Positions 54,808-62,702 of a DNA stretch of 64,000 nt are shown here, one piece after another. Each line of letters begins with the position of its first letter. Positions within the stretch are counted from its first letter, which is position 1. The notes under the pieces are model-generated. The model worked only from the letters and a program-made list of their open reading frames with translations. It was not told where the DNA came from and made no database searches. The DNA lies in NCBI RefSeq assembly GCF_008386235.1, contig NZ_CP040671.1, positions 1,180,001 to 1,244,000 of the forward strand, in the 5' to 3' direction. Both the position numbers and the translations under genes were made by a program. Origin of the DNA: Thermosynechococcus sp. CL-1. GTDB lineage: Bacteria > Cyanobacteriota > Cyanobacteriia > Thermosynechococcales > Thermosynechococcaceae.

Positions 54808-57546
54808 ATGACCCTAGGGCTAGTTCCACGATTCGTTAAAATCTTATTATTTATTGGCTTGATGCTCTTGAGTACCAGTTTGGCGGTGATTTTTCCCCTG
54901 CACACGGTAGAAGGACTCGGTAGTGGTGTAACCAAAACCGTTTTAGACAATGGCCTCACGGTGCTGATCAAAGAGATTCCCACAGCACCCGTTGTGAGTT
55001 TACAGGTGTGGTATCGCGTTGGTTCTCGCCATGAACCCAAGGGAGAAAATGGGATTGCCCACCAACTGGAGCATTTGATGTTTAAGGGCACCAAGAGCCG
55101 TCCCGTCCAGTTTGGTCAGTTGTTTTATGCCCTTGGCAGTGCTTCCAATGCCTTTACCAGCTACGACATGACTGCCTACCACCATACGGTGCGCGCTGAC
55201 CAACTAGAACCACTGCTGATCCTTGAAGCCGATCGCCTGCGCAATATCCTGATGACCCCCGAGGCCCTTGAGAGTGAAAAACGGGTGGTGATCTCGGAGC
55301 TGCAAGGCTATGAAAATAGTCCTGAATATCGCCTCAGTCGAGCCGTGATGGCCGCCCTCTATCCCCATCATCCCTACGGCTTGCCAGTGGGGGGAACGGC
55401 CAGTGATGTGGAGCAGTTTACGCTGCCAGCGGTGAAGAGTTTTTATCACCAGTACTATCGCCCCGATAATGCCGTTGTGGTGATTGCTGGCGATGTCCGT
55501 CCCCCAAGGGCACTGGAACTGGTCAAGAAAACCTTTGGGCAGATTCCTCGGCCAACCGACCCTCTAAAGTCTCCTTCATTACCGCCCCCAACGGCAGGTC
55601 AAGCCCAGCGAATTTGCCTCACAGAACCGGGGAGTGCGCCGCTATTACAGATTTTGGTACCCATTCCAGCGATGACCCATCCAGATCAGGCGGCCTTGGA
55701 TGTGCTGGATATGCTCCTCAGTGGCGGACGCAGTTCGTACTTGTATCAGGAATTGATGGAAACGGGTCAAGCCAGTTCGGCCTACTCCTATGTGGCCGCG
55801 TTACAGGCGGGGGGCTGGTTTGAAATTGGCGCGATCGCGGCTCCGGAGCAATCCCTTGAGACGATTGAGCAGACCATTGGCCAGATTCTCCACCAGCTGG
55901 CAGAGCATCCCTTGAGCGCCGCTGAACTGCAACGGGCTAAGCAACAGCTCAAGGCCAATTTTATCCTGCGCAATCGTGACATTGATGCCCAAGCCAGTCA
56001 ATTGGCTAATGATGAAACCCTGACGGGAGATTATCGCTTTAGCGATCGCCACCTTGCGGCCATTGAAAAAGTCACGGCTGCGGATGTTCAACGAGTGGTG
56101 CAGACCTACTTTGGGCGCGATCGCTGGATTGTGGGGGAATTTATTCCCAGTGAATTTGCCGATGTTGAGCTTTCAGGTCGGCCGGGTGCCCAAACCACCG
56201 CCCATAATCTTGTCGGTGAGCCAGTGGATCCGCAAACCATTGCCGCCTATTTACCCCAAGGGAGTGGGCAGGCTGCCCCTGAGGTCAAAAATAATGGGGT
56301 GGAAACCTTTACCCTGAAAAATGGCCTGCGGGTGCTCTTACTCGTGGATCGCAGTACACCAACCATTACGCTGGCGGGGCGCATTGACGCAGGAACAGCC
56401 TACGATCTATTGACACAACCGGGGGTGGCCCACCTCACTGCTGCCAATCTCCTCAATGGCACGCGGCGCAAAAATGCCCTGACGCTGGCACAAACCCTTG
56501 AGGATCGTGGCATTAGCCTAGAATTCAGTGCCTTCCGCGATGGAGTGGATATTGAGGGCTATGCCTTGGCCAGTGAACTGCCCACGCTGTTGCAAACCCT
56601 TGGTGAAGTCCTTCAAGAAGCCACCTTCCCAGAACCGGAGTTTAAGCTCAGCCAACAACGCTATCTCACGGCTCTGAGCCTTGAGGCGGATGATCCTGTG
56701 CGCTGGGGGCGCCGCGTCCTGCAAGAAACCCTCTATCCCGCCAATCATCCCCTGCATCCCTTTGCCACGCCTGAATCTGTACAGGCGATTCAACGCCCAG
56801 ACCTGTTGAACTTTTATCGGGCGGCCTATACCCCCGATCACACGATTTTGGCCCTCGTGGGGGATTTTGACCCAGTGGAGGTGCGATCGCGCCTCAATGA
56901 AATTTTTGGCTCGTGGCAACCCCAAACGGATCCCCTGTCCCTAACCTTTCCTGCGGTTTCACCGCCCGAGCAAACCCTCTTTAAGAATGCGGTGATTGCC
57001 GGTAAGAGCCAAGCGATTACCTATCTGGGGGCGCCGGGGATCGATCGCCGCGATTCTCGCTTCTACGCAGCGATACTGATGAATCACATCCTAGGGGGAG
57101 ACACGCTGGCCAGTCGCTTGGGCACAGAGATTCGCGATCGCCAAGGCTTGACCTACGGCATCTATAGCTTCTTTAGTGCCAGTCGTCAGGCAGGGCCTTT
57201 TATCATCCAACTGCAAACGGCTCCCGAAGATACCGCCAAGGCCATTCAGGCCACGCTGCAACTCCTGCGGGAGGCGCGCCGCCAAGGATTCACTGCTGCC
57301 GAACTCGATGCGGCCAAGCGCAGCCTCAGCAATACCTACATTGTGGAATTAGCCAATGTCGATGTGGTGGCACGGACGCTGTTGGGAAATGCCAGTGTGG
57401 GCTTACCGCCGGCGGAATTACAACAGTTTAGCGATCGCTTGCAAGCGGTGACTCTAGAGCAAGTGAATCAAGCTCTACGCGATCTCCTTGATCCAGAGCG
57501 ATTGGTGATTGTGACGGCGGGTCCCCCTGTTGCCTTTAACCTTTGA
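54808..57546 (+). CDS. M16-family peptidase, two-domain (PqqL/processing-peptidase-like)
   Basis: 912 aa. An N-terminal hydrophobic segment (ILLFIGLMLLSTSLAVIFPL) is a signal or anchor. The first M16 half has the inverted zinc motif GIAHQLEHLMFKG (HxxEH) and the distal Glu in ALESEKRVVISELQG. The second half (from about 495: NGVETFTLKNGLRVLLLVDR) lacks HxxEH, showing AHLTAANLL instead, as expected for an inactive partner domain. The family degrades peptides inside a closed clam-shell. It is exported or membrane-associated. Followed at 4 bp by ccdA. Confidence 0.94.
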   Translation: MTLGLVPRFVKILLFIGLMLLSTSLAVIFPLHTVEGLGSGVTKTVLDNGLTVLIKEIPTAPVVSLQVWYRVGSRHEPKGENGIAHQLEHLMFKGTKSRPVQFGQLFYALGSASNAFTSYDMTAYHHTVRADQLEPLLILEADRLRNILMTPEALESEKRVVISELQGYENSPEYRLSRAVMAALYPHHPYGLPVGGTASDVEQFTLPAVKSFYHQYYRPDNAVVVIAGDVRPPRALELVKKTFGQIPRPTDPLKSPSLPPPTAGQAQRICLTEPGSAPLLQILVPIPAMTHPDQAALDVLDMLLSGGRSSYLYQELMETGQASSAYSYVAALQAGGWFEIGAIAAPEQSLETIEQTIGQILHQLAEHPLSAAELQRAKQQLKANFILRNRDIDAQASQLANDETLTGDYRFSDRHLAAIEKVTAADVQRVVQTYFGRDRWIVGEFIPSEFADVELSGRPGAQTTAHNLVGEPVDPQTIAAYLPQGSGQAAPEVKNNGVETFTLKNGLRVLLLVDRSTPTITLAGRIDAGTAYDLLTQPGVAHLTAANLLNGTRRKNALTLAQTLEDRGISLEFSAFRDGVDIEGYALASELPTLLQTLGEVLQEATFPEPEFKLSQQRYLTALSLEADDPVRWGRRVLQETLYPANHPLHPFATPESVQAIQRPDLLNFYRAAYTPDHTILALVGDFDPVEVRSRLNEIFGSWQPQTDPLSLTFPAVSPPEQTLFKNAVIAGKSQAITYLGAPGIDRRDSRFYAAILMNHILGGDTLASRLGTEIRDRQGLTYGIYSFFSASRQAGPFIIQLQTAPEDTAKAIQATLQLLREARRQGFTAAELDAAKRSLSNTYIVELANVDVVARTLLGNASVGLPPAELQQFSDRLQAVTLEQVNQALRDLLDPERLVIVTAGPPVAFNL

Positions 57547-57550
57547 TGCC

Positions 57551-58273
57551 ATGGCCAGCTTAACGCTCCAACTCTATCAACTAGAACAGTGGGCAAACCA
57601 ATGGGTGAGTGGTCAACTGAGCAGTCTCAGCGTCATGAGTGTGGGGATTATCTTTTTGGCGGGACTGCTCACAAGTCTGACTCCCTGCACCCTTTCGATG
57701 CTGCCAATTACTGTCGGGTACATCGCCGGCTACGCCACAAAGCAAAATAGCTCCGTCTTGCGCCAGTCTCTTTGGTTTGCCCTTGGCCTCGCAACCACCT
57801 TAACCCTGTTGGGGATGATTGCTGCTGTTGCTGGTCGCATCTACGGTCAGGTGGGCTGGGGGTTAACGATCGTGGTGAGCTTGGTGGCGATCGCCATGGG
57901 CTTAAACTTGCTCAATGCCTTGCCCCTGAGCTTTCCCCGCAGTCGCTTCCTAGAGGAACTGCCGGATCGGGTTCCTGCGGGATTGCAAGCCTATACCCTA
58001 GGGGCAACATTTGGCCTTGTGGCAGCACCCTGTAGTACGCCGGTCTTGGCAACGCTGCTGGCATGGGTGGCCACAACCCAAAAGCTAGTGGTGGGGGCTG
58101 GCCTGCTGTTGGCGTATACAACAGGGTATGTCGCGCCGCTGATTTTAGTCGGAGTATTTAGCGGTGCCTTGCAAAAGCTCTTGGCACTGCGGCAGTGGTC
58201 GAGTTGGATTACCCCTGTGAGCGGTGTGCTCCTCATTGCTTTTGGCGTCATTGCTTTAGCCATTCGTCTTTAG
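57551..58273 (+). CDS. ccdA: cytochrome c biogenesis protein CcdA
   Basis: 240 aa from ATG 57551 (MASLTLQLYQLEQWANQWVS), 4 bp after the M16 stop. Six transmembrane segments and the two redox-active cysteines, each before a proline-bracketed turn: LLTSLTPCTLSMLPITVGYI and FGLVAAPCSTPVLATLLAWV. It passes reducing equivalents across the thylakoid membrane for cytochrome c-type haem attachment with CcsA/CcsB, which are not here. It is the last gene before the CRISPR leader. Confidence 0.95.
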   Translation: MASLTLQLYQLEQWANQWVSGQLSSLSVMSVGIIFLAGLLTSLTPCTLSMLPITVGYIAGYATKQNSSVLRQSLWFALGLATTLTLLGMIAAVAGRIYGQVGWGLTIVVSLVAIAMGLNLLNALPLSFPRSRFLEELPDRVPAGLQAYTLGATFGLVAAPCSTPVLATLLAWVATTQKLVVGAGLLLAYTTGYVAPLILVGVFSGALQKLLALRQWSSWITPVSGVLLIAFGVIALAIRL

Positions 58274-58568
58274 TGCTCAAGTCAAAGGGGCAGTGGTTAG
58301 CCGATGGCGGCAGCCATGCAAGCACCTCTGGACAAAAATATCCTCTCAGCTTGGCAATTTTCTCAAACCCAGTCTCCACAACGCTTTGAGCAATTTCTAA
58401 CAGATTTGGAGGTGCTTGAATTTTCCCGAAATTCAGTTCCAGAGTGACTTTCACGTCCTGTGACCCTGCGGATCTAAAAATTTTACAAAAACAAAAAAAT
58501 GATCCTCTCTAGGTGCTTGAAAATGACCTGTGCTATAGTAGTCGTAGAGCACCTTCTAGGAAGGCGCA
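58274..58568 (+). promoter_or_regulatory. CRISPR leader region
   Basis: This 295-bp stretch between ccdA and the first repeat has no convincing gene and becomes AT-rich near the array (AAAAATTTTACAAAAACAAA around 58476-58497). TGCTATAGT at 58531-58539 is an extended -10 promoter box; transcription would start about 20 nt before repeat 1. The hairpin-forming CCTTCTAGGAAGG at 58552-58564 lies just before the repeat and could be part of the leader-anchoring site. Leader placement on this side is supported by the decayed repeat at the opposite end. Confidence 0.65.
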
Positions 58569-60770
58569 GTGCTGGGATTCTTTCCCAGCCGAACAAATGG
58601 AAACAAACCCAAGGGAACAAAAGCGCGTTTGCCCAAGAGTCGTGCTGGGATTCTTTCCCAGCCGAACAAATGGAAACTGGTGGGTACAGGCAAGCTTTAT
58701 TGCCGCCGTTATAAGTGCTGGGATTCTTTCCCAGCCGAACAAATGGAAACGGAAAATACTGCGCCGATTTAATGCATAGGGATGAAAGTGCTGGGATTCT
58801 TTCCCAGCCGAACAAATGGAAACGTTTTGGTTTCGCCGCGGAAACCAAAATCCCTTGCGGTGCTGGGATTCTTTCCCAGCCGAACAAATGGAAACAGACG
58901 CACCGCCTAGGATTAAAAACCCAATAGGCACGTGCTGGGATTCTTTCCCAGCCGAACAAATGGAAACTACATTGCACTCTTTTTCACGATATCTAAAATA
59001 TAGTGCTGGGATTCTTTCCCAGCCGAACAAATGGAAACTATCTAGAGCGGTTATCGACTAACGTGGAGCGTTATGTGCTGGGATTCTTTCCCAGCCGAAC
59101 AAATGGAAACTAGATTTGTTGGTGAGAGGCACCACCAAGCAGTAGAGTGCTGGGATTCTTTCCCAGCCGAACAAATGGAAACTACTTCCTTCTGCAAAAG
59201 AGCCAGGTCGGAATTCGGACAGTGCTGGGATTCTTTCCCAGCCGAACAAATGGAAACCTGCCCGTCTCATCCCGTTTTGAGATGGCGGTCTGCGTGCTGG
59301 GATTCTTTCCCAGCCGAACAAATGGAAACCTTTGGATTGTATCTCCTTTTTCTAGGAGTGTGTAAGTGCTGGGATTCTTTCCCAGCCGAACAAATGGAAA
59401 CGCGGTCTGCCCGAGATAGATGCCCCGGGAAAGCTCGTGCTGGGATTCTTTCCCAGCCGAACAAATGGAAACTACAAAACCTCTAACATTTCTAAAGTAG
59501 TTTTTCTTGTGCTGGGATTCTTTCCCAGCCGAACAAATGGAAACTCGTGAAGGATTTCGAAATTGTAGTCCTCGACGCTAGTGCTGGGATTCTTTCCCAG
59601 CCGAACAAATGGAAACTGCATAAGTTCATGCACAATTACGTATAGCTGCCCAGGTGCTGGGATTCTTTCCCAGCCGAACAAATGGAAACCCAATGACTAG
59701 CATCAATACTTTGCAGAGCATTTTGGTTAGGGAGTGCTGGGATTCTTTCCCAGCCGAACAAATGGAAACCCTTTATTAAAAGTTTATCGATTACAAGACA
59801 CGTACGTGCTGGGATTCTTTCCCAGCCGAACAAATGGAAACCTACTTTTGCCGCCGTTTTTTTAGCCCTAACTGGTGCTGGGATTCTTTCCCAGCCGAAC
59901 AAATGGAAACTTGTTTGACCTTTTTGTGTCAACACTGCTAATGCAGCAGTGCTGGGATTCTTTCCCAGCCGAACAAATGGAAACCTAAGAAGCCAGATAA
60001 CGGCCTCTTTCATGGAATGTGCTGGGATTCTTTCCCAGCCGAACAAATGGAAACTTTAGGGTATGCTTTGTGTAAAACAGAAGTTTTAATGTGCTGGGAT
60101 TCTTTCCCAGCCGAACAAATGGAAACTTGTATTCTTAAGGATACAAAAGGCACAACTCAAAGTGCTGGGATTCTTTCCCAGCCGAACAAATGGAAACGGG
60201 ACTTCTTTTTCTTGTTCTTTGGGGAATTTTAGGTGCTGGGATTCTTTCCCAGCCGAACAAATGGAAACATCTAAGTAGGCCCTGAGGGCGTTTTCGATAA
60301 GCCAGTGCTGGGATTCTTTCCCAGCCGAACAAATGGAAACAAAGGCTTTCTGTATTCTTTCATGTCCAGTAAAAATGGTGCTGGGATTCTTTCCCAGCCG
60401 AACAAATGGAAACCCAAAACATAGTGTTCTCCTAAGTAAACTCCATGTGCTGGGATTCTTTCCCAGCCGAACAAATGGAAACTTAAAAAGGCAATAATTG
60501 TGTGGTCAAACTTTTTAAGTGCTGGGATTCTTTCCCAGCCGAACAAATGGAAACCTTAACAATATCCCCCCTTGACCCCTCAAAACTAACTGTGCTGGGA
60601 TTCTTTCCCAGCCGAACAAATGGAAACCAGCTCAAACTCATAATGAATGACTGTGGAAAAAGTGTGCTGGGATTCTTTCCCAGCCGAACAAATGGAAACT
60701 TCAACTTGTAGTTGCATAATTAACCCTCCAGTAAGTGCTGGGATTCTTTCCCAGCCGAACAAATAGAAAT
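58569..60770 (+). CRISPR. CRISPR array, 31 repeats / 30 spacers
   Basis: The repeat is 36 nt: GTGCTGGGATTCTTTCCCAG, then CCGAACAAATGGAAAC. GCTGGGA and TCCCAGC form a perfect 7-bp stem with a TTCTT loop, and the 3' end ATGGAAAC would be the 8-nt crRNA tag. Copies start at 58569, 58642, 58715, 58788, 58860, 58932, 59003, 59075, 59147, 59222, 59294, 59366, 59437, 59509, 59581, 59654, 59734, 59806, 59875, 59949, 60019, 60091, 60162, 60233, 60305, 60378, 60447, 60519, 60592, 60664 and 60735. Spacers are 33-39 nt, except one of 44 nt at 59690-59733. Thirty repeats are identical by eye; the last ends ATAGAAAT. No cas gene is in the window, so the type is not assigned. Open frames through the array are artefacts. 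Confidence 0.98.
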
Positions 60771-60796
60771 CGAGTTTATTTTTTTGGAGAAACATT

Positions 60797-61288
60797 ATGG
60801 GAATACTCTCAGAAGTCCTTCAACGGGCTACTGCATCACCACCTATTACCCTGAAAACGCTTGCCACAGAAGTTGTTGTCCCACTCTACAGTCGCTACAG
60901 TGGAGCAAATTTGGCATCCTATTCTAGGCTTGACGAGCGTTTTGTTCAAAAAATGACTTTTATTCCTTTAGGGTTCTTTCTACCAAGCTCTTCCAAAATT
61001 CTTTACGCGATTTTGAAAGACGGCAAGTTGCCGTCTGACTGGGCACCGTCCATTCAATTCAGCCGGGACGGAACCTTGATTGACAAAACAGGCTGGAGTG
61101 ATATTGCCAATATGACCTCATCGGCATTTCGGAAGCTTCCTAGGGGATTACAAGGAAAGATCATCAGTTTATTGCAACTCCAAGCTGACAAGCACGTACT
61201 CCTAAATTATTCGGAGTCATGGCAGTCTTTGCTGTGGCTTCCAGCAGAGTATCAACGCTTAGACGTTGTGGATACTGCTGCAGATTAA
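60797..61288 (+). CDS. unrecognised gene embedded between two CRISPR tracts (163 aa)
   Basis: ATG 60797 is preceded by TTTTTTTGGAGAAACATT, a good SD (GGAG, 8 bases), so this is probably a translated gene. The protein MGILSEVLQRATASPPITLK... has a helical N-terminus, a hydrophobic middle (MTFIPLGFFLPSSSKILYAI), DWAPSIQFSRDGTLIDKTGW and a helical C-terminus (KIISLLQLQADKHVLLNYSE). No signal peptide or family motif recognised. It lies 26 bp after the decayed last repeat, and its TAA ends 1 bp before the next repeat. It contains no HIP1 octamer and looks more AT-rich by eye than flanking genes, suggesting acquisition. Confidence 0.75.
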   Translation: MGILSEVLQRATASPPITLKTLATEVVVPLYSRYSGANLASYSRLDERFVQKMTFIPLGFFLPSSSKILYAILKDGKLPSDWAPSIQFSRDGTLIDKTGWSDIANMTSSAFRKLPRGLQGKIISLLQLQADKHVLLNYSESWQSLLWLPAEYQRLDVVDTAAD

Positions 61289-61289
61289 G

Positions 61290-61466
61290 GTGCTGGGGTT
61301 CTTTCCCAGCCAAACAAATGGAAACACGGATGCAGTTTAACGTCATGCTCAGGACAAGAGTGCTGGGATTCTTTCCCAGCCGAACAAATGGAAACCCTGT
61401 GTGGAGTAAAGACATCTCTAGATCTCCAAAGTGCTGGGATTCTTTCCCAGCCGAACTAATGGAAAC
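61290..61466 (+). CRISPR. second CRISPR tract, 3 repeats / 2 spacers
   Basis: Repeats at 61290-61325, 61360-61395 and 61431-61466 use the same 36-nt consensus. The first has two changes (GCTGGGGTTC and CCAAACAA), the second is perfect, and the third has GAACTAAT in place of GAACAAAT. Spacers are 34 and 35 nt. There is no leader of its own; it sits directly behind the embedded gene and 15 bp before the convergent gene at 61482. It looks like the old distal end of the main array cut off by the embedded gene. Confidence 0.9.
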
Positions 61467-61481
61467 GGTTGGCCATAAGAG

Positions 61482-62702
61482 CTAATGCATCTTGTCTAGG
61501 AAACCCTCAGTCGAGCTCGGGGAAACACCGCAAGGCCGGATTAAGACAATGGGTGTTTGCTCATCGGCATTACCGGCGGGGTTTTTCTTCAGAGCAGTCG
61601 TGAGGAAGTGAGGGGAGACTCCTTGGCTAGCGGCAAGCACCTTGACTGCCCCTAGGTCGTTAACATCCACAATGGCGATGCCCAAACCCGTTTTTGCTGC
61701 CAGATCCTCCACGACGGCTTGGGGGTTAACAGGTCCCATAACAATAAATTGATCGTAGGGGGGCAGAGTACCTGTCACATCGTCAATGAGGCGAGCTTGT
61801 TCGCCGGCCAATTGATAAAATCCGCCCTTGTGACCAAAGACTTTGGCGATCGCCCCCCCCAAAAAGGCCAAGAGTACCCGTAGCGCTCCCACTTCCTCGA
61901 CCAAGGCTTGCATGCCACAGGCCGTTGCCAAACTGGAAGTCGGCAAGAAGAACTGGCACACCCGCGTTGCTACCCAGCCGGGGCGCAGTTGGGCAGGATC
62001 TTTGAGGCGGCCTTGAATAATGGCAATGGGGGTTTCACCAATTGCGACAATATCACCTGCTTGGGCATGGGGCATGACGTAGCGATTGAGCACCTCTAGG
62101 GGAATATCCAACGGCGTCAGTAAATGGGTGCGAATGGGGAGTACCTGACATCCCTCCGCCTGTCGCCACACACCTGTATTTCCCGTGGCCGGAAACTTGA
62201 GGGGGATAAATTCATGATGGGTTTTCAGGAAGCGACCATGGGGGCCATAGGCAATGTAGTGAATCTTGACCCAAGCAGCCTTGACCTCGCTCACGCCAAT
62301 TCCCTGCAAATCCACACAAATCTCGACATTCGTTTGCTTGGTGGACTTGACGATATAGGCAAACCAATAGCCATCGGCACGGGGGGGAAACTCTGGCTCC
62401 GGGTGGCGGGGGATGACCTGCACATCCGTCTGAATCATATCGACACGGCCATCGGACAATAGCACCACCTCTGCCCGTAAGTCTGGCACCATCACCTCAA
62501 GGCCACGGTGGGGGTTGCTCAGTCCCAATAGCCCGACAAAACGGTAGTGGGTTGGCTCATAGATTTCCAGATTCCAAGTGGCACGGATCACTTCAAGGGG
62601 ATGGGCTGGCCGCTGGCGATACCGCCCTTCCAAACCGATCGCCACCAAAAGGGCTAGGAATCCTAGGGCGGCTGCCCCTATGCCGATAACTGTTGCAATC
62701 AT
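61482..62702 (-). CDS. F420-0:gamma-glutamyl ligase-like (CofE-like) protein
   Basis: 406 aa from ATG 62702. One N-terminal membrane helix (IATVIGIGAAALGFLALLVA) is followed by a cyanobacterial-specific region (about 30-200). The C-terminal domain (PHAQAGDIVAIGETPIAIIQ, FGHKGGFYQLAGEQARLIDD, GLGIAIVDVNDLGAVKVLAA) resembles CofE-type F420-0:L-glutamate ligases. Cyanobacteria are not known to depend on F420 generally, so another gamma-glutamylation or nucleotide-dependent role is possible. It converges on the CRISPR locus, ending 15 bp past the last repeat. Confidence 0.75.
   Translation of the reverse strand: MIATVIGIGAAALGFLALLVAIGLEGRYRQRPAHPLEVIRATWNLEIYEPTHYRFVGLLGLSNPHRGLEVMVPDLRAEVVLLSDGRVDMIQTDVQVIPRHPEPEFPPRADGYWFAYIVKSTKQTNVEICVDLQGIGVSEVKAAWVKIHYIAYGPHGRFLKTHHEFIPLKFPATGNTGVWRQAEGCQVLPIRTHLLTPLDIPLEVLNRYVMPHAQAGDIVAIGETPIAIIQGRLKDPAQLRPGWVATRVCQFFLPTSSLATACGMQALVEEVGALRVLLAFLGGAIAKVFGHKGGFYQLAGEQARLIDDVTGTLPPYDQFIVMGPVNPQAVVEDLAAKTGLGIAIVDVNDLGAVKVLAASQGVSPHFLTTALKKNPAGNADEQTPIVLIRPCGVSPSSTEGFLDKMH

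Follow-up and report, generated by a model that had tools for sequence, protein, structure and literature searches.

An open reading frame of foreign composition in a spacer position of a CRISPR array of Thermosynechococcus sp. CL-1

The array and the open reading frame between its repeats

The window, that is, the 64,000 nucleotides of Thermosynechococcus sp. CL-1 analyzed here (contig NZ_CP040671.1, positions 1,180,001 to 1,244,000), contains a CRISPR array at 58569-61466 made up of 34 repeats of 36 nt (Table 1). The canonical sequence is found in 31 of the 34 repeats, the exceptions being R31, R32, and R34. Among the 33 intervals, 32 are ordinary spacers of 33 to 44 bp, and the remaining one, between R31 and R32, measures 519 bp and lies flush with R31 on one side and with R32 on the other. 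DNA of non-spacer length therefore has a repeat directly at each end, which is the arrangement by which we define an insertion of foreign DNA into an array. The initial annotation had described a gene occupying a spacer position at this point, and the mapping of R31, the insert, and R32 shows its coordinates and description to be correct.

The insert holds a single open reading frame (ORF), of 163 codons and on the array strand. Its ATG lies 26 nt past R31, and its TAA (61286-61288) is followed by a single G and then by R32. The insert was subjected to 20,000 dinucleotide shuffles, and 38 of them contained an ORF of at least 150 amino acids in any frame, which makes an accidental origin of the open frame unlikely. 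The highest hydropathy of the encoded protein over 19 residues is 1.46, and an AlphaFold model made from the single sequence has a mean pLDDT of 38.8. The substitution at position 31 of R31 creates an in-frame TAG (60764-60766), 11 codons before the ATG, which closes a frame that would otherwise run on into R31.

Table 1. Features of the array, its insert, and the surrounding block (positions in the window)
Feature	Position	Strand	Description or basis
Block that looks introgressed	~57400-61750 (limits approximate)		Gene 57530-58273, leader, and whole array; identity to relatives
Leader side of array	58274-58568	+	Flank and array align with G001; likeness to array 2; GGAAAC repeat end
Repeats 1-30	58569-60734	+	Each canonical; the 30 spacers among them are ordinary (33-44 bp)
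Promoter-like match	60693-60720	+	9/12, spanning repeat 30 and spacer 30; possibly fortuitous
R31	60735-60770	+	Positions 31 and 36 substituted, at the end facing the gene; retains hairpin
Insert	60771-61289	+	519 bp in spacer position
Shine-Dalgarno-like GGAG	60786-60789	+	7 nt before ATG
ORF	60797-61288 (stop included)	+	163 aa, putative ORFan, ~18.2 kDa, pI 8.9
R32	61290-61325	+	Positions 9 and 23 substituted, in the part facing the gene; retains a slightly weaker hairpin
First spacer after gene	61326-61359	+	Matches short element of many viral contigs
R33	61360-61395	+	Canonical
Last spacer	61396-61430	+	35 bp
R34 (terminal repeat)	61431-61466	+	CTAATGG variant, as in array 2 and G001

The composition of the insert is foreign. 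Its GC content is 44.5%, against 53.7% in the window and 41.6% in the 32 ordinary spacers. The codon adaptation of the ORF (0.54) falls below that of all 32 window genes compared (0.66-0.76), and its codon score is -0.08 per codon versus 0.14-0.28 for the 32 reference window genes; the ORF frame is the best-scoring of the six frames, yet it stays under every reference gene. These values fit phage or plasmid DNA, or a recent import, and would also leave room for a non-coding insert, an explanation considered below. A decayed stretch of array was rejected as the source of the insert, the best internal match to the repeat being 18/36, a value that 191 of 300 shuffles reached as well.

The units of an array that lie far from the leader are the oldest. 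The orientation of the array is deduced from the GGAAAC end of its repeat, and its upstream flank is also present in relatives with an array or a relic at this site. Together, the shared flank and the repeat end place the leader on the side given in Table 1 and the gene among the oldest units. Immediately upstream of repeat 1, the sequence is similar to that preceding a second array of the genome, array 2 (26 of 29 bases by eye). R34 carries a single substitution, A27T, which is the state found in array 2 and in both arrays of the relative G001, and this makes the trailer end look old. R33 is canonical although it is old by position. Array 2 (541829-545511 of the genome) has 52 repeats of nearly the same sequence and spacers of 32-40 bp, with no gene inside. 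It also contains a run of three spacers that is directly repeated, one of them occurring a third time, and hence does rearrange through its repeats.

Homologue searches and the same site in relatives

The search of genomes and structure sequences that the initial annotation had proposed produced no homologue in the collections covered, and its remark that no domain was recognizable is borne out, since no family in Pfam, PHROGs, PADLOC, or NCBIfam matched the 163-aa protein up to E = 10. No known cas or defense model (PADLOC, Pfam, NCBIfam) matched it either, and the best E value against PDB sequences was only 0.22. A tblastn search of 50,697 phage and 72,556 plasmid records gave nothing better than E ~1, and four pattern scans with a reach of close relatives, three of viral contigs and one of genome contigs, gave no confirmed relative. 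No convincing plasmid or virus match was thus found in phages, plasmids, or viral contigs. At the DNA level, relatives of the insert within the genus were short stretches only (best E 0.002, over 26 bases), and no further copy was found in its own genome. No known RNA family was detected at 58200-61700 up to E = 1.

Searches of whole genomes, in sets of relatives, order, class, and phylum that overlap, returned matches at E ≤ 0.01 in 1 of 58 relatives, 1 of 29 genomes of the order, and 3 of 386 of the phylum, and at E ≤ 0.1 in 12 of 388 genomes of the class, the own genome being counted each time. Besides the own genome, this leaves 11 of 388 at E ≤ 0.1, where ~39 are expected, and 2 of 386 at E ≤ 0.01, where ~4 are expected, so the weak matches do not exceed chance. 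Three of them were examined in context, with genes recognized by eye, and look like chance: L176 overlaps a ribosomal protein gene of the opposite strand, and L175 and L074 lie inside apparently ordinary genes. At the sensitivity reached, the predicted protein is an ORFan.

The gene is present in 1 of 11 genomes of the genus, being absent from the 10 others searched, two of which are drafts 90-92% complete. Two of these relatives (G001 and G007) have gene-free arrays at the same site, and five (G002, G004, G005, G006, and G008) have a single relic repeat there; in G003, G009, and G010, no repeat was detected at the site by the BLAST search used. The comparison establishes an old array site and does not date the gene. 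In G005, the leader and the relic repeat are inverted relative to the neighboring gene, and a different gene follows (L020 772-1071).

The array also lies between two breakpoints in sequence identity. Four relatives were compared along the window, and G008 is the closest of them; identity to it is 88.9-96.2% from 38.5 to 56.5 kb in 1.5-kb steps and 93.6-96.8% from 61.97 kb on in 500-bp steps. At the left breakpoint it falls from 96.7% (57250-57399) to 74.7% (57400-57549), and at the right one it rises through 76, 86, 91, and 96% in 100-bp steps over 61550-61850. Outside the block there is one dip, to 86.7%, in the 150-bp step at 56800. In fine steps, the gene before the array remains at 78.7-81.5% identity to G008 throughout. 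Over 57550-58250 the window is 78.9-81.8% identical to all six relatives compared, against 88.5% between G008 and G007. Three segments outside the block were also compared, and there the window matches G008 at 94.2-96.5%.

This strain has a divergent allele of the preceding gene, with a sharp drop in identity to G008 at 57400. This gene is also divergent among other relatives (80.4-81.0% between G001 and G002, G004, or G005), and part of the drop may for that reason belong to the locus itself. From the identity profile we infer that array, leader, and neighboring gene came together from an unsampled lineage. If the block is introgressed, relatives would be expected to lack the gene in the array, and its absence from them is hardly informative about its history in the donor.

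Proposed recombination within repeats and rival origins

All four private substitutions among the repeats lie in R31 and R32, on the sides that face the gene. When four substitutions were placed at random over 33 repeats, with R34 left out as ancestral and with a hypothesis formed after seeing the data, they were confined to R31 and R32 in 1.35e-5 of trials, to R31 and R32 with the order seen in 1.5e-6, and to some one adjacent pair in 3.7e-4. The gene-facing order alone, given two substitutions per repeat, has a chance of 1/6. A crossover between repeat positions 23 and 31 would give exactly this pattern, whether as a single event with a circular donor or as one event per repeat with a donor array. 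Both 23A and 31A occur together in the single relic repeats of G002 and G004 at the same site. Alternatively, relaxed selection could have let the substitutions arise at a later time.

These observations suggest a gene that is real, unusual in its position, and probably a recombination-derived passenger; our confidence in this reading and our doubt about it are about equal. Homologous recombination inside the 36-bp repeats would have placed a gene of foreign composition between two of them, the donor being either a molecule that carried the gene and a repeat (one crossover) or an array with diverged repeats (two crossovers). The donor tract would begin at the right end of R31, take in the gene, and stop midway along R32. 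The array as a whole, together with its preceding gene, would have entered this strain by exchange from an unsampled relative. As a passenger, the gene may have been retained since its diverged flanking repeats would be less prone to loop it out. Among the options offered by the initial annotation, an insertion through recombination between repeats has the best support, given the breakpoints and the gene-facing substitutions of R31 and R32. What counts against it is the donor: no homologue of the gene was found, and no repeat with both 23A and 31A appeared in the viral or genome contigs, two collections from which records close to the genome of the window may be missing. The array's own repeat was likewise not found in viral contigs.

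The main rival, which we regard as possible if improbable, is aberrant adaptation, in which Cas1-Cas2 would have inserted 519 bp of DNA from a phage or plasmid as an oversized spacer at a time when R32 stood next to the leader, the repeat being copied at integration and the flanking repeats mutating later. The exact repeat-insert-repeat geometry, a GC content close to that of the spacers, and the presence of a Cas4-Cas1 fusion in the genome agree with such an event. It would have to be reconciled with a length ~14 times that of a normal spacer and with the only Cas1 found, which adjoins a type I-B system with a different repeat, and a random fragment would presumably seldom contain exactly one whole gene. 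Taken alone, it also leaves unexplained why private substitutions occur only in R31 and R32 while the older R33 is intact. The same DNA could be foreign and yet have a frame that is broken or open by chance, from which no protein is made. The negative codon score relative to host genes, the lack of a homologue in any collection searched, and the AlphaFold value given above are compatible with this explanation, which is nevertheless unlikely in view of the rarity of such frames among the shuffles, a GGAG and an ATG of its own, a frame that scores best of six, and an ORF that fills the insert.

We assign very little probability to a mobile element having landed in an ordinary spacer. Spacer remnants could be hidden at the ends of the insert, but both ends are flush with the repeats, and we found no match to a transposase or other family, no further copy in the genome, and no terminal repeats (ends inspected by eye). 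The repetitive nature of arrays invites the suspicion of an assembly artifact, to which we give almost no credence, as the genome is a single contig estimated to be 100% complete and 0.04% contaminated and the repeats at the joins carry unique variants.

A comparable arrangement has been described in Sulfolobus solfataricus, where an 899-bp fragment that partly matches a pNOB8-like plasmid lies between two repeats of CRISPR locus F (PMC4390879). The likeness consists in DNA far longer than a spacer between two repeats of one array. The difference is that here one complete ORF with a ribosome site fills the insert and the repeats differ on their gene-facing sides, whereas the passage on locus F describes no gene or repeat chimerism (PMC4390879). 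This is the one precedent for genes within arrays that the accessible text of the open-licence literature yielded, and we do not claim that others are absent from print. The complete gene, the chimeric-looking repeats, and the block that looks introgressed would go beyond it. Passages of the same source describe deletions, duplications, and exchanges of spacer-repeat units through repeats, also between loci, in Sulfolobales arrays (PMC4390879). Both cases would represent rearrangement of arrays via direct repeats, with the gain of a gene proposed for the present one.

If recombination within repeats is the true origin, CRISPR repeats would act as short tracts of homology that allow a strain to gain whole genes, and arrays would move between cyanobacterial species as blocks. 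Gene-facing repeat differences provide a simple signature that can be searched for in other genomes. Should the protein be expressed, it would be an ORFan whose transcript is expected to be processed by the crRNA machinery.

Expression, a guard role, and the spacer after the gene

Expression of the passenger gene, if any, would start from a chance promoter in spacer 30 or from a long array transcript. Promoter-like matches number 4 on both strands of 60600-61500, against 0.9 expected, and the one listed in Table 1 is the only one on the + strand. Both repeats beside the gene retain their hairpin, so a long transcript could possibly be cleaved at R31 and R32, and such cleavage would release a short mRNA. 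A stronger version holds that the gene is maintained cargo, its mRNA cut from pre-crRNA at the hairpins and its output tied to array transcription and crRNA processing, the substitutions serving to tune cleavage or to prevent loop-out; this we consider decidedly unlikely.

As to the effector that the array serves, the type I-B locus of the genome encodes Cas3, Cas5, Cas6, Cas7, Cas8, and a Cas4-Cas1 fusion, and the array that belongs to this locus has a different repeat. The genome also has a III-B locus, and in the 19 kb read around it there is no copy of the array's repeat. By elimination, we infer that the array at 58569-61466 serves the III-B effector. The genome-wide cas searches covered Cas1, RAMP, and one Cas6 family. 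A match to PF10040 (Cas6) was rejected, as it was below the cut-off and inside another gene; Cas6 proper was found in the type I-B locus.

The initial annotation had also suggested that the gene might guard the array, a proposal that is left unsupported by the spacer comparisons. A guard would be a toxin or regulator restrained by CRISPR RNAs, as in CreTA, and two slightly degenerate repeats do flank the gene, degenerate repeats being typical of creA in the accessible part of the source (PMC8501985). CreTA resembles the present case in having a gene next to degenerate CRISPR repeats and is described, in the parts of the sources available, as consisting of ectopic repeats outside arrays, an RNA toxin, and a guide that directs repression by Cascade (PMC9458426, PMC8501985). 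Unlike CreTA, no spacer seed was found at the gene. A guide partly complementary to the toxin promoter was sought as exact seeds of at least 8 nt, without mismatches, in 60700-60830, and none was found for 129 of 130 spacers; these came from this genome and from the same-site arrays of two relatives, and the one left out, spacer 30, lies within that interval. The first 9 or more nt of the 96 ordinary spacers of three arrays of this genome had no exact match in the insert. The best full-length match of the 130 spacers to the insert was 22/34, by a spacer of G001, a value (64.7%) that barely exceeds the best of five shuffles made with the genome's 96 spacers (62.9%). Seed and spacer comparisons thus gave no sign of a guard or toxin-antitoxin role. 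Furthermore, inspection by eye of the ORFs of 80 aa or more between 45 and 64 kb revealed no cas gene, the type I-B Cascade of the genome has another repeat, and the gene is confined to one genome of the genus. Taken together, a guard role appears highly improbable.

The spacer that follows R32 matches a short element of viral DNA, with an exact match over 23 bases in 77 viral-contig stretches drawn from many IMG/VR datasets (L089-L165). The element has near-identical copies in a Nostoc phage, a deep-sea thermophilic phage, and a human fecal phage contig (L086 1501-1524, L087 1501-1528, and L088 1501-1526), and in the two annotated records it sits between annotated genes. No Rfam family at gathering score overlapped the element in the 13 loci searched, and its 12-base core was encountered in the literature in one unrelated paper only. 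On the other strand of the element, a start codon followed by at least 60 open codons lies 3-33 nt after it in 43 of 66 distinct contexts, and within 142 nt of it in 56 of the 66, both counts being made without a shuffled control. The element is possibly a widespread phage regulatory element.
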